From assembly GCA_022508265.1 (NCBI GenBank), contig JAFLVP010000017.1, forward strand, positions 1 to 36,377: a stretch of 36,377 nt of DNA. The letters are read 5' to 3'. Position 1 is the stretch's first letter. Every line of letters begins with the position of its first letter. The notes beneath the pieces are model-generated. The model saw nothing but the letters and a program-made list of their open reading frames with translations. It searched no databases and was not told the DNA's origin. The DNA is from Clostridiales bacterium. GTDB taxonomy: Bacteria; Bacillota; Clostridia; Christensenellales; Borkfalkiaceae. This document shows, piece after piece, positions 32,064-36,377 of the stretch. Made by a program: the position numbers and the translations under genes.

Positions 32064-33140
32064 TCAATATATAACCTTTTCTATAACGCCGCCGCCGAGG
32101 CAGGCTGTCTCGTCATAGAATACCGCGTATTGCCCTTCGGTTACGGCGCGTTGAGGTTCGGCAAATTCAACTTTTGCCCCGCCGTCCGTAAGGAGAAGTT
32201 TCACGGCCTGTTCGGGTTGACGGTATCTGAATTTTGCGGTGCAATTTATCGTTAGTTGAGGCATATATCCTATCCAATTGAGGTTTGACACCTCGCAAGC
32301 CCTGGAATAGAGGGGGCTTTCGTCGCCGTGTGAAACATATAAAATGTTGTTCTGTATATCTTTTTTCACGACGAACCATCGGCCTTCTTCGCCGCGTACA
32401 CCACCCAAATCGAGCCCTTTGCGCTGACCTATTGTGTAGTACATAAGACCTATGTGTTCGCCGACTACTTTGTTATCGAGCGTTCTTATCTCGCCCGACT
32501 GTGCAGGAAGATAATTTTGCAAAAATTTACGGAAGTTTCGCTCGCCGATAAAGCAGATACCCGTAGAGTCCTTTTTGCCCGCCGTGGCAAGATTGTTCTC
32601 GAGCGCAATTTTTCTGACTTCCGACTTGTCGAGGTCGGCAAGCGGAAAGATTACGTTTTTAAGCTGCTCCTCGCGCACCTGATTTAAAAAATAGGTCTGA
32701 TCCTTGCCGTTATCCTTGGCTTTCAAAAGTCGGGTCTTTCCGTTTTTATGTTCAATTCCGCAGTAGTGGCCCGTAGCAATATAGTCCGCGCCCATACTCA
32801 TAGCGTACTCGCGGAAAGGTCCGAACTTTATCTCGCGGTTGCACAAAACGTCGGGGTTGGGGGTTCTGCCCGCCTTGTACTCGGAAAGGAAGTATGAGAA
32901 CACCCTATCTTGGTACTGCTCGGCAAAGTTTACCGAGTAGTAGGGGATATCCAGCGCGGCGCAAACCCTTCTGACGTCGGCATAGTCTCCGTCCGCCGTA
33001 CACGCGCCGTCCTTATCGTCCTCTTCCCAGTTCATCATAAAAAGACCTATTACGTTGTAACCCTGCCGTTTAAGAAGATATGCGGCAACCGAAGAATCTA
33101 CTCCTCCGCTCATCCCCACGACAACTGTTTTCTGCGACAT
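32064..33140 (-). CDS. mnmA: tRNA-specific 2-thiouridylase MnmA
   Basis: 358 residues. It installs sulfur at U34 of Lys, Glu and Gln tRNAs. The PP-loop reads GMSGGVDSS (9-17). The two catalytic cysteines are C100 (NPDVLCNREIKFG) and C196 (STGICFIGER). GHYCGIEH binds tRNA and the C-terminal beta-barrel ends FYDETACLGGGVIEKV. It is a single leftward gene with its own promoter, which shares its -35 box with tRNA-Arg. Confidence 0.97.
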   Translation of the reverse strand: MSQKTVVVGMSGGVDSSVAAYLLKRQGYNVIGLFMMNWEEDDKDGACTADGDYADVRRVCAALDIPYYSVNFAEQYQDRVFSYFLSEYKAGRTPNPDVLCNREIKFGPFREYAMSMGADYIATGHYCGIEHKNGKTRLLKAKDNGKDQTYFLNQVREEQLKNVIFPLADLDKSEVRKIALENNLATAGKKDSTGICFIGERNFRKFLQNYLPAQSGEIRTLDNKVVGEHIGLMYYTIGQRKGLDLGGVRGEEGRWFVVKKDIQNNILYVSHGDESPLYSRACEVSNLNWIGYMPQLTINCTAKFRYRQPEQAVKLLLTDGGAKVEFAEPQRAVTEGQYAVFYDETACLGGGVIEKVIY

Positions 33141-33259: not shown

Positions 33260-33337
33260 ACACCCGTAGCTCAGTGGATAGAGCACCGCCCTCCGGAGGC
33301 GGGTTTTGCGCAGGTTCGACTCCTGTCGGGTGTACCA
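33260..33337 (+). tRNA. tRNA-Arg (CCG)
   Basis: A complete cloverleaf with encoded CCA. Acceptor stem ACACCCG/CGGGTGT, discriminator A, anticodon stem CCGCC/GGCGG and loop CTCCGGA give anticodon CCG (Arg). The last 19 bases are repeated exactly at 33477-33495. Confidence 0.95.
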
Positions 33338-33495
33338 AATGCGGCGAACATGCTTTTGCGTGTTTGCCGCATTTGTATATAGCCCGAACCTGTGAGAACC
33401 TGCCGTTCGTGCGAGCGCCAGACGGCGCGAAGCTTTGCGCACTTTATTGTAAAAAAGTTCAGATAATGATGCGCAAACTCCTGTCGGGTGTACCA
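33319..33495 (+). repeat. Direct repeat of the tRNA-Arg 3' end (att-like scar)
   Basis: ACTCCTGTCGGGTGTACCA occurs at 33319-33337, inside tRNA-Arg, and again at 33477-33495. The copies enclose 139 bp. A factor-independent terminator follows the second copy by three bases, as if it originally followed the tRNA. This is the pattern left by integration of a mobile element into a tRNA 3' end, here reduced to a short remnant without integrase. A 17-bp stem (33337-33353 with 33358-33374) lies just after the intact tRNA. Confidence 0.8.
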
Positions 33496-33643: not shown

Positions 33644-33907
33644 AAAACCTTTAAGTTTGCCCAAAATCCGCTCTATATAAAAGTACAAAAACAAAGTTTC
33701 TTCCGGCAAAAATCTTCGAGACGTCGGAGTATAATAAGCCGAGAGTTGAAGCTGGTGCGGGGCAAAGCGCTGTATAGCCACGAAACGTGCGACTATTTTA
33801 AAGAGCATGTCAAGCTTTTCACACAAAAACAAATTGGCGCCTTATGCGGAGTGTCCGAGCAAAGCGCAAGCTGCACGATAAAAAATTTTAAGGAAAAAAT
33901 CAACAGT
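33644..33907 (+). pseudogene. Probable remnant of a transposase-like helix-turn-helix C-terminus
   Basis: An open frame in phase with the next gene but without a credible start reads ALYSHETCDYFKEH, then FTQKQIGALCGVSEQSAS and TIKNFKEKI before the next ATG. The second part looks like the helix-turn-helix tail of REP-associated (Y1, RAYT-type) transposases, where LSxxEIGELFG is followed by a serine-rich recognition helix. Nothing of the catalytic HUH domain is present, so it is a fragment if the reading is right. The same stretch also serves as the leader of the ThiC-like gene, with a TATAAT at 33731. Chance similarity is possible. Confidence 0.35.
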
Positions 33908-35077
33908 ATGAAGATAGTTATAGGCAATGTAAAAAGAGAAAAGAAGCTGCTTGCGGGCGACGGGCAATATCCGAGAGTTTTGGCAAGCGTAGGCATAAGC
34001 AGAGAGGAGGATTGCATACAAACCGAGGTGCAAAAGGCAAAGCTTGCACAAAAATACGGCGCAGACATCGTAATAGACCACACCTTGACGCCTAAAAATT
34101 ATGATGTGCAAAAACAAATTATCGAAGAAACCGACATACCCGTATCCTCTATCGCCGTTTACGACGTGGCGGCAAAAGCTCGTTACGGGGAGAGGGATTG
34201 TTTTACGGAAACAGACGTTTTAAACGGTATTGAACAAAAAGCAAAGCTCGGCATCGATATGATGACAATTCATGCAAGCTGTCTGAAAAAAGACCTGCTA
34301 TACTTTGAAAAAAGCAACCGTGTTATTCCGTGCACCAGCCGGGGCGGAACAATGGTTTTGGAGAACATACAGAAAACGGGCTGTGAAAACTTTTATTTTA
34401 CGTATTTTGATAAGATACTTGAAATTGCCAAAGCATACGGCGTTACGTTGAGTTTGGGTGCAGTTTATCGTCCGGCCAACATATACGATGCGGTACACGA
34501 AAATACAATGTACTGGGAAGAAATACGCCGCAATGCGGATTTGGTTGCGATGGCAAAAGAAAAGGGCGTCGCATGCATAGTGGAAGGAATCGGGCATTGT
34601 CCTGTCAATTTGATACCCGAAGTGGTCAAAAAATCCAAAGCCGTCTGCAAAGCCCCCTACAGGGTGCTTACGGTATCGACAGACAGCGCGTTGGGGTTTG
34701 ACCACGTATCTTCCGCAATCGCCGCGGCAACGGCGGTTGCGGCAGGCGCCGATTTCGTTACGGCAGTCTCCAGATCGGAGCATTTGGGGTTGCCTTCTCA
34801 CGACGACTTAAAAGAAGCAGTTATAAGTGCAAAAATCGCGGCACACAGCGGATATATTGCACGAACGGGCGATATTGGTTTGGATTACTCAATGGCAAAA
34901 GAGAGAAGTATAGTTGGTTGCCGCGGAACAATGCAGGCGGCTATAGTGCCGGAAATGACGAAAGAGGCATTACAAAGATATAAAGCAGACGAAACAAAAA
35001 AATGTACAATGTGCGGTGATTTCTGCGCCCTGTTTGCAAGCGATAATATCAGAGGGAAAAATGCAAGAAAAGATTAA
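33908..35077 (+). CDS. Divergent ThiC-family radical SAM protein
   Basis: 389 residues, shorter than usual ThiC. ThiC makes the thiamine pyrimidine HMP-P from AIR; the paralogues BzaA, BzaB and BzaF make benzimidazoles for cobamides. Family landmarks are MTIHA (119-123), SRGG (144-147), EGIGHCP (226-232), SEHLGLP (290-296), KIAAH (309-313) and a C-terminal cluster motif C366-x2-C369-x3-C373. The two histidines H230 and H292 match metal-ligand positions. The ThiC block with GDGLRPG reads GAVYRPA here and EGPGHVP reads EGIGHCP. No TPP riboswitch or other thiamine gene is seen. The ATG at 33908 with AAGGA upstream is the likely start. Product unknown. Confidence 0.8.
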   Translation: MKIVIGNVKREKKLLAGDGQYPRVLASVGISREEDCIQTEVQKAKLAQKYGADIVIDHTLTPKNYDVQKQIIEETDIPVSSIAVYDVAAKARYGERDCFTETDVLNGIEQKAKLGIDMMTIHASCLKKDLLYFEKSNRVIPCTSRGGTMVLENIQKTGCENFYFTYFDKILEIAKAYGVTLSLGAVYRPANIYDAVHENTMYWEEIRRNADLVAMAKEKGVACIVEGIGHCPVNLIPEVVKKSKAVCKAPYRVLTVSTDSALGFDHVSSAIAAATAVAAGADFVTAVSRSEHLGLPSHDDLKEAVISAKIAAHSGYIARTGDIGLDYSMAKERSIVGCRGTMQAAIVPEMTKEALQRYKADETKKCTMCGDFCALFASDNIRGKNARKD

Positions 35078-35618
35078 AACCAAAGAGCAAAGCAAAAACA
35101 AGATTTTAGCGTTGGACTTAAACCGTGTCCCCGAAATTTTCGTCGACAAGACGGATAAAAAAAGTATGCTTGAGTTTTTTGCGAAGAATACGGAGGAATT
35201 GTATATCGTAAGGGACGCAGAACACAGCAACAGTGCGTACTTTTACGTTCGTTCAGCTGACGAGTGCTTTGAAAAAGCACAAAACTTTTCGGGTCGGGTT
35301 ATTGTCGCCGTTTCCATTCATACGTATAAAAATAAACTGCTGTTGGGGGCGGTTGAAATTGCGGGCACGTCTGTACGGATTTGCGCAACTACCGATAGCA
35401 ATTTAGACCACCGTACAATGTATCACGGGAAAGCAGAATTTGAGCTTTCTACGGACATTTTCGACAAACGGTTATCCGATATTCCGGAATTTGATTTTTT
35501 ATACGATTATATTATTTCGCACCGTATAGACGGCTATACGGTTGAATTTACGATATATGATAGGCCGGTAGGACCCAAAAAGCAAAAAATCATTATCAAC
35601 GAGATAAGAAACTACTAA
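35061..35618 (+). CDS. Unknown protein encoded with the ThiC-like gene
   Basis: 185 residues, overlapping the ThiC-like gene by 17 bp with an AGAGGG site, so the two are a coupled pair. No signal peptide or membrane helix. After a Lys-rich start, residues 25-60 hold FVDKTDKKSMLEFFAKNTEELYIVRD, then VIVAVSIHTYKNKLLLGAVEIAG, RICATTDSNLDHRTMYHGKAEFE and a C-terminal DFLYDYIISHRIDGYTVEFTIYDRPVGP. I recognise no family. The His-Arg-Thr-Met-Tyr stretch and the conserved-looking aromatic C-terminus suggest an enzyme or ligand-binding fold. Its partner implies a role in the same pathway. Confidence 0.75.
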   Translation: MQEKIKTKEQSKNKILALDLNRVPEIFVDKTDKKSMLEFFAKNTEELYIVRDAEHSNSAYFYVRSADECFEKAQNFSGRVIVAVSIHTYKNKLLLGAVEIAGTSVRICATTDSNLDHRTMYHGKAEFELSTDIFDKRLSDIPEFDFLYDYIISHRIDGYTVEFTIYDRPVGPKKQKIIINEIRNY

Positions 35619-35869: not shown

Positions 35870-36377
35870 ATGTCAGATGGAAGAATTTACAACTTTTCCG
35901 CGGGTCCCGCAGTGCTTCCCGAAGAGGTTCTGCGCGAGGCGGCAGCGGAGATGATGAACTACAGGGGTTGCGGCATGTCCGTAATGGAGATGAGCCACCG
36001 CTCCAAGATGTTCGACGACATCATCAATGAAACCGAGCAGGATTTGAGAGAGCTTTTAAAGGTTCCCGCAAACTACAAAATTCTGTTCCTGCAGGGCGGC
36101 GCAACGCAGCAGTTTGCGGCAGTTCCCATGAACCTTATGAAAAAGGGCGTAGCCGACTACATTGTTACCGGCCGCTGGGCAAAGAAGGCGTACGAAGAGG
36201 CGCAGTTGTACGGAAAAGCAAACAAAATAGCTTCGTCCGAGGATAAGAATTTCACTTATATTCCCGACTGCTCCGATTTACCCATCAGCAAGGACGCGGA
36301 CTACGTATATATCTGCGAAAATAACACCATCTACGGCACGAAGTTCTGGCAGCTTCCCAACACCAAGGGCAAGCTTC
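35870..36377 (+). CDS. serC: Phosphoserine aminotransferase, 5' part
   Basis: The first 169 codons run off the window. SerC converts 3-phosphohydroxypyruvate and glutamate to phosphoserine, the second step of serine synthesis. YNFSAGPAVLPEEVL, NYRGCGMSVMEMSHRS and the FLQGGATQQFAAVPMNL PLP-binding block are typical, and the cut end YICENNTIYGTKFW is the conserved substrate region. An AAGGAGA site precedes the ATG. The PLP lysine lies beyond the edge. Confidence 0.96.
   Translation, partial: MSDGRIYNFSAGPAVLPEEVLREAAAEMMNYRGCGMSVMEMSHRSKMFDDIINETEQDLRELLKVPANYKILFLQGGATQQFAAVPMNLMKKGVADYIVTGRWAKKAYEEAQLYGKANKIASSEDKNFTYIPDCSDLPISKDADYVYICENNTIYGTKFWQLPNTKGKL

Follow-up and report, generated by a model that had tools for sequence, protein, structure and literature searches.

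The DNA examined here (the window) is a stretch of 36,377 nucleotides from a Clostridiales bacterium, a small gut bacterium of the family Borkfalkiaceae (assembly GCA_022508265.1, contig JAFLVP010000017.1). It carries a pair of overlapping genes, the first encoding a divergent paralogue of the radical S-adenosylmethionine (SAM) enzyme ThiC and the second, open reading frame 2 (ORF2), encoding a small protein of predicted ATP-grasp fold. A preliminary description of this DNA had proposed a two-gene operon with a 17-bp overlap, and both reading frames are indeed present and intact at these coordinates (Table 1). The sequence AAGGA lies 13 nt ahead of the ThiC-like ATG. Immediately upstream lies the remnant of a helix-turn-helix (HTH) protein whose counterparts stand ahead of the pair in related loci L002 and L003 (tblastn E 1.4e-12, 50% over 54 aa; L and G numbers denote loci and genomes); this remnant is in frame with the ThiC-like gene in the window, which is not so in L003. 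In agreement with the same description, an Rfam scan of the window at gathering score returned tRNAs only and no thiamin pyrophosphate (TPP) riboswitch, and inspection of the neighbouring genes, made by eye only, revealed no thiamine or cobamide genes.

Table 1. Coordinates of the gene pair and surrounding features in the window
Feature	Position	Strand	Description
ThiC-like gene	33908..35077	+	389 aa, radical SAM protein of the ThiC superfamily (PF01964), in a clade of its own
ORF2	35061..35618	+	185 aa, predicted ATP-grasp fold; start 17 bp inside the end of the ThiC-like gene
HTH-protein remnant	33749..33910	+	last 54 codons of a protein of ~300 aa; ~245 N-terminal residues gone
tRNA-Arg(CCG)	33260..33337	+	intact
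Identical 19-bp duplicate of the tRNA-Arg 3′ end	33477..33495	+	att-like scar; source 33319-33337
mnmA-like gene	32064..33140	-	host neighbour, named by eye; served to locate the same site in congeners
serC-like (phosphoserine-aminotransferase-like) gene, start only	35870..36377	+	downstream host gene, named by eye

Both genes of the pair are under strong purifying selection. Between the window and L003, the proportions of synonymous and nonsynonymous differences (pS and pN) are 0.68 and 0.15 for the ThiC-like gene and 0.82 and 0.19 for ORF2, and pN is far below pS in all five window comparisons for each gene.

The ThiC-like protein belongs to the ThiC superfamily (Pfam PF01964, E = 3e-93) and possesses both the ThiC fold and the C-terminal cluster domain. 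Its scores stay under all NCBIfam cut-offs for ThiC equivalogs (311.8 bits for a cut-off of 410, 286 for 460 and 207.9 for 650), and it scores 248.9 bits on the BzaB model TIGR04386, for which the cut-off is 700 bits and the Moorella protein (L072) reaches 763.2. The motifs TSRGG, GAVYRPA, EGIGHCP, SEHLGLP and CTMCGDFC are all present, so the preliminary description had correctly read the ThiC landmarks (SRGG, GHCP, SEHLGLP and the C-terminal Cys triad) and the altered blocks GAVYRPA and EGIGHCP. A search of 5.8 billion proteins returned 615 ThiC-like matches, the best 120 of which were examined; EGIGH is found in 118 of these 120 (query counted), the other two having EGFGH and EGYGH. Because EGIGH is kept in relatives and both genes are under purifying selection, the sequence motifs of the protein are not a product of chance.

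The cysteine triad had also been described as anomalous. Its CX2CX3C spacing is real, but the anomaly is not, as the same spacing occurs in all 10 clostridial canonical ThiC proteins compared, in Moorella BzaA and BzaB, and in 76 of the 80 locus proteins. It was accordingly discarded as a marker of new function. CX2CX4C was found in three Elusimicrobiota rows and in E. coli. Among the rows without CX2CX3C is also L006, the single exception among the 56 rows of the window clade, where a stop precedes completion of the triad. The ThiC-like gene of this locus (L006:10001-11146) has an in-frame TGA directly after the second cluster Cys, at a position that is Gly in relatives; this is either a sequencing error or a real inactivation.

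The active site was compared at 16 positions mapped on 198 aligned proteins, leaving out two short protein rows and locus L043, with residue roles drawn from two papers on AtThiC and CcThiC (PMC4389238 and PMC11117688). Three groups were distinguished: the window clade (56 rows, 55 distinct), a wider EGIGH clade (74) and all others (68). Every window-clade row retains Y286, H322, S342, R343, G344 and R386 (phosphate and SAM), E422 (2′-OH), H426 and H490 (metal), and G230 and E489 (SAM). Judged by these residues, the clade retains what is needed to cleave SAM and to hold a 5′-phosphoribosyl group. The base-handling residues D383, Y449 and C474 (the catalytic Cys) are replaced, which upholds the earlier observation of altered substrate contacts. 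In the window protein these three positions are A185, R252 and T285. Specifically, Y449 is Arg, the catalytic Cys is Thr, N228 is Ser and L259 (a SAM contact) is His in 56/56 rows, while D383 has become Ala (34), Cys (8), Thr (6), Ser (6), Phe (1) or Val (1); thus D383, N228 and the catalytic Cys are each kept in none of the 56. In the wider EGIGH clade, Y449 is Arg in 74/74 rows, D383 is never Asp and the Cys position holds Thr in 70/74. The other rows keep the Cys (68/68) and N228 (67/68), with Asp or Asn at 383 and Tyr or Phe at 449. Moorella BzaA and BzaB retain D383 and the Cys and have Phe at 449; since N228 is Ser in BzaA and Leu in BzaB, its loss was rejected as a unique trait of the window clade.

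These replacements bear directly on the reaction. According to PMC11117688, the ThiC variants D383A, N228D and C474S (C474 being the catalytic Cys in Caulobacter) consume 5-aminoimidazole ribotide (AIR) and yield no detectable hydroxymethylpyrimidine phosphate (HMP-P). As all three residues are replaced in the window clade, the known HMP-P mechanism cannot run unchanged there. In ThiC, Tyr449 stacks on the amino group of AIR, and an invariant Arg at this position suggests an anionic base in the substrate.

The preliminary description had regarded the protein as a divergent ThiC paralogue and had named, as a finding that would refute this, its placement inside the canonical ThiC or BzaF clade with an intact active site. 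A tree of 75 rows, with BzaA and BzaF outside the row set, places it elsewhere with respect to ThiC and BzaB: a branch supported at 100/100 separates 33 rows (E. coli ThiC, 10 ThiC proteins of the window's class, archaeal and other ThiC proteins, and Moorella BzaB) from 42 EGIGH-type rows. The latter include 11 rows of the window clade, itself supported at 100/98. Among the best 120 of the 615 matches, the first 46 rows (query counted) have at least 60% identity, followed by a drop to 54%; partial rows P0050 and P0076, further down, have 63 and 67%.

The clade is rare and patchy. A scan of GTDB contigs, from which 80 loci were kept, yielded 10 with a clade ThiC (L002-L011), or 11 loci with the window. 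Within the genus it occurs in 3 of 93 genomes, each time in different surroundings: the window, G754 (= L008) and G1197 (= L004, adjoining an HNH endonuclease gene). A class-wide search with the ThiC-like protein matched 161 of 391 genomes at E <= 1e-75, mostly through canonical ThiC, and only the window's own genome stood apart (1.4e-166; next 6.4e-109). A stricter scan of the phylum for the clade gave 1/398, and ORF2 was found in 1/101 genomes of a family sample and 12/297 of an order sample. Two scans of viral contigs gave no relative, which led to the rejection of phage carriage, and no description of the clade or the pair was found in open-licence PMC papers.

No Pfam, NCBIfam or PADLOC family matches ORF2. 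The earlier statement that it matches nothing known therefore holds at the level of sequence and fails at that of fold, as its predicted structure is a confident ATP-grasp fold. Two residues, E162 and E181, are invariant in 27/27 sequences and lie on the last two strands; they are candidates for the conserved Mg-ATP carboxylates of ATP-grasp enzymes. Kinship with PPDK, considered because of a common EFT...RN motif, found no support: comparison with the PPDK N-domain gave an hhalign probability of 0.2% against a shallow three-sequence PPDK-like profile, in which PPDK was named by eye, and a profile search of PDB sequences gave nothing better than E 0.11.

The linkage of the two genes is firm. 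In all 11 clade loci the start of ORF2 falls between 17 bp short of the ThiC-like gene's end and 1 bp past it, taking an inner ATG with a 4-bp overlap in L005, L010 and L011 and with the frame of L006 broken by the stop. Because L005 and L011 (99.3% identical) and L008 and L009 (98.1%) are near-identical, these represent nine independent loci. Indirect evidence of linkage also comes from the protein database, where 21 of the 59 ORF2 matches (ORF2 itself included) share their longest-contig size with a ThiC-like match. A second gene unlinked in most genomes, which had been named as a refutation, is not what these loci show. Lone ORF2 homologues do occur at loci L085-L093, in genus g45 with genomes of 0.8-1.0 Mb; the L087 copy lies near a UPF0047 (YjbQ) gene, and PPDK in L091-L093 was named by eye.

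Mobility of the pair is best seen in L008 and L009, where L008:6992-13594 and L009:6992-13594 are 98.1% identical over 6603 bp although L009 comes from Pumilibacter muris, a member of another family. The upstream flanks of the two loci are unrelated. The match opens at the 5′ half of a tRNA-Arg-like sequence, broken off behind the anticodon loop, and the island holds its own complete tRNA-Arg(CCG), which apparently replaces the broken host gene. A razor-sharp boundary in the anticodon was considered and dropped, as the first ~65 bp are merely 70-80% alike and near-identity begins at ~7060; the element would have inserted into the anticodon loop, its exact attachment point being inferred. L009 additionally encodes a tyrosine integrase and a MobL relaxase, and L006 encodes ArdA and PcfJ. 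With a common island, unrelated flanks, a broken tRNA at its start and an integrase in L009, the L008/L009 element is a tRNA-associated mobile island. In these relatives, the pair is demonstrably cargo of tRNA-associated or conjugative islands.

In the window itself, the pair follows a truncated island gene at a tRNA-Arg hotspot. An mnmA match was found in 36 of 41 congeneric genomes and 30 loci were fetched; 20 of the 30 (window counted) have tRNA-Arg(CCG) no more than 1.5 kb from mnmA, at its 5′ side, the tRNA being reversed in L131. As judged by eye, the content beyond the tRNA differs widely among these loci, and G754 (L008) carries a different island at the same site. The tRNA gene in the window had been called scarred: there is a scar, namely the 19-bp copy of its 3′ end, and the gene itself is undamaged. 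The two identical 19-bp copies (window 33319-33495, spaced 158 bp) are a remnant of a separate integration upstream of the pair. Since both copies lie wholly upstream and the pair is not between them, they mark activity at the site rather than the ends of the pair, and were rejected as its own att sites. The suspicion of horizontal acquisition is nonetheless borne out by the near-identical island in two hosts, by the variability of the tRNA-Arg site and by the scattered occurrence in the genus.

The surroundings of the pair are rich in defence genes at some loci. Several pair contigs are only 7-9 kb long, so that counts of neighbours are incomplete and both presence and absence are undersampled. 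A DEDDh-type exonuclease was found by BLAST in 6 of the 11 loci, and Pfam bears out RNase_T in L006 and L009. A CARF protein (checked by PADLOC in L006), a superfamily 1 (SF1) helicase and an HTH protein occur together in three (L002, L006 and L007), as does a 475-487-aa protein. The HTH protein, found ahead of the pair in L002 and L003 and present too in L006 and L007, looks sigma-like by eye and has weak HTH matches only in Pfam. Nearby genes in L007 encode a HamB-like (Hachiman) helicase and a type I methyltransferase, and those in L011 encode AbiE, methyltransferases and PDC.

A candidate module emerges from these neighbours, consisting of the CARF protein (PADLOC CARF2, Csx1-like), the ~300-aa HTH protein, the SF1 helicase and the 475-487-aa protein, which has no Pfam match. 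It is present in L002, L006, L007 and L172 (G207:C12), and a 114-120-aa protein accompanies it in L006 and L172 and also occurs in L003. The module is separable from the pair, because L172, a 15.6-kb stretch, contains it without the pair; the position of the pair also varies, following the HTH gene in L002 and the 475-487-aa gene in L006 and L007, and a fixed system of ThiC-like protein and CARF module was therefore rejected. A tblastn search with 12 island proteins detected no companion next to the pair in the window other than the HTH remnant. PADLOC had no model match for either pair protein.

More distant relatives have other neighbours. A wider-clade member (L012:9956-12224) is followed directly by NUDIX and deoxynucleoside kinase genes, with a RimK-like ATP-grasp gene a few kb off, surroundings suggesting nucleotide-related chemistry. 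A distant clade member in a deltaproteobacterial metagenome-assembled genome (L013:1736-11035) is accompanied by serine hydroxymethyltransferase, carbamoyltransferase, pyridoxal-phosphate enzyme, seryl-tRNA-synthetase-like and radical SAM/SPASM genes, in what looks like a natural-product cluster.

The reading we favour, and regard as fairly probable, is that of a mobile module of two enzymes whose product is a ribotide-derived small molecule other than the thiamin pyrimidine. From its conserved residues, the ThiC-like enzyme would share with ThiC the binding of SAM, an auxiliary metal and a [4Fe-4S] cluster, and would hold a 5′-phosphoribosyl substrate through the phosphate and 2′-OH contacts of ThiC. 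Its base pocket appears rebuilt: the acid at D383 is gone, Y449 is Arg throughout and Thr takes the place of the catalytic Cys. The enzyme may therefore begin its radical chemistry on a ribotide whose base is different, perhaps carboxylated, or it may turn AIR into another product. The ATP-grasp protein, whose translation begins at the overlapping start, could then ligate or phosphorylate that product. Because the module is island cargo, a dispensable, selfish or defensive role of the product seems likelier than a housekeeping one. Several points weigh against this reading. AIR stays a possible substrate, because the ThiC D383, N228 and C474 mutants still consume it and BzaA and BzaB also alter N228 and Y449. 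PurM, the source of AIR, is present in 4 of 5 pair-bearing genomes, though it was not found in the window's genome (94% complete). All five have TPP-riboswitch matches, two of them over the gathering score, so the hosts probably handle thiamine. Nine genomes of one small-genome genus have an ORF2 homologue and no PF01964 protein, so the two proteins need not share a pathway and tight pairing is called into question. The ThiC-like protein could also conceivably be catalytically dead or regulatory, even though its SAM, metal and cluster ligands appear kept.

A conflict role of the pair is possible on the evidence of its neighbourhood. In conflicts with phages or other elements, the module might make a signal, or a nucleotide-like compound that is toxic or terminates chains, a function comparable to that of the prokaryotic viperins; the exonuclease, the CARF, helicase and HTH proteins, and the Hachiman, methyltransferase, AbiE and PDC genes described above point in this direction. 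This role is doubtful, however, given that the CARF module is separable, that the window pair has no such companion beyond the HTH remnant, that neighbours are undersampled, that defence genes are common island cargo, and that viral contigs and PADLOC models gave no match. Its most specific form, in which an unnatural nucleotide-like product would arise through the ThiC-like enzyme from a non-AIR (for example carboxylated) ribotide, be activated or conjugated by the ATP-grasp protein, and be cleared from host nucleic acid by the DEDDh exonuclease, is unlikely, although it would constitute a third reaction class for the ThiC superfamily. The idea of degenerating cargo, in which an island in decay still carries a pair that no longer has a function, draws on the upstream gene reduced to 54 codons and on the stop in the cluster motif of L006; intact window frames, selection on both genes and the full set of cluster and metal ligands make it very unlikely. 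A salvage or alternative route to HMP-P or a related pyrimidine, in hosts without canonical ThiC, would accord with the ThiC fold, the shared SAM, phosphate and metal sites, and the TPP riboswitches. No other PF01964 protein was found in the 3/3 pair-bearing genomes searched, the window's own among them. Yet ThiE is over cut-off in none of five pair-bearing genomes (two weak matches lie below it), the replaced D383, N228 and C474 are residues whose change abolishes detectable HMP-P in ThiC (PMC11117688), and the pair is rare, so that this route is hardly probable. With no ThiE over cut-off, no other PF01964 protein and TPP-riboswitch matches, thiamine is probably used by these hosts but not made by this route, and nothing in the hosts tested points to thiamine synthesis by the pair, in line with the preliminary description; a ThiT-like transporter was named by eye. 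Least credible is a BzaF-like paralogue making benzimidazole, the lower ligand of cobamides. Membership of the same superfamily and the alterations of N228 and Y449 in BzaA and BzaB are in its favour, whereas the score far below the BzaB cut-off, the position outside the Moorella BzaB branch, and the retention of D383 and C474 in BzaA and BzaB are not; inspection of the 11 loci by eye, without a family search, noticed no cobamide gene beside the pair.

The pair is thus real, conserved, mobile and in part misnamed in databases. Some clade proteins among the best 120 of 615 matches bear the name 'phosphomethylpyrimidine synthase ThiC', so that genomes having only this clade could be miscalled HMP producers. 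To our knowledge, only two radical outcomes are established for the ThiC superfamily, the thiamin pyrimidine and 5-hydroxybenzimidazole. Both are named in PMC11117688. A large clade with the SAM and phosphate machinery but with replaced base-handling residues implies at least one further reaction, for which the ATP-grasp partner offers a concrete second step. Mobility and the defence-rich surroundings of some loci make it conceivable that metabolites made by radical SAM enzymes play a part in conflicts of bacteria with mobile DNA.

Among known systems, ThiC itself (PF01964; AtThiC 4s25-4s29, CcThiC 3epm-3epo) has in common with the ThiC-like protein the fold, the metal and phosphate sites, E422, E489 and the three Cys residues; the latter differs in its replaced D383, Y449, C474, N228 and L259, its sub-cut-off score, its separate clade and its ATP-grasp-fold partner. 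BzaA and BzaB, which act in anaerobic 5-hydroxybenzimidazole synthesis (Moorella L072), are likewise ThiC paralogues with replaced N228 and Y449 and a CX2CX3C triad. Unlike the ThiC-like protein, they keep D383 and C474 and adjoin a CobT-like gene (named by eye), and BzaB lies on the opposite side of the 100/100 branch. ORF2 shares its predicted fold with ATP-grasp enzymes such as Ddl, RimK/LysX, CPS and the N-domain of PPDK and rifampin phosphotransferase, and differs from them in its length of only 185 aa, without partner domains or detectable sequence similarity. The prokaryotic viperins, radical SAM synthases of antiviral nucleotides, have a different radical SAM fold and motif. A DEDDh exonuclease has reportedly been found, in one study (PMC9415739), to remove an antiviral nucleotide. 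The likeness of the viperins to the pair is one of idea only, that of a radical SAM enzyme acting on a nucleotide in the vicinity of defence genes.
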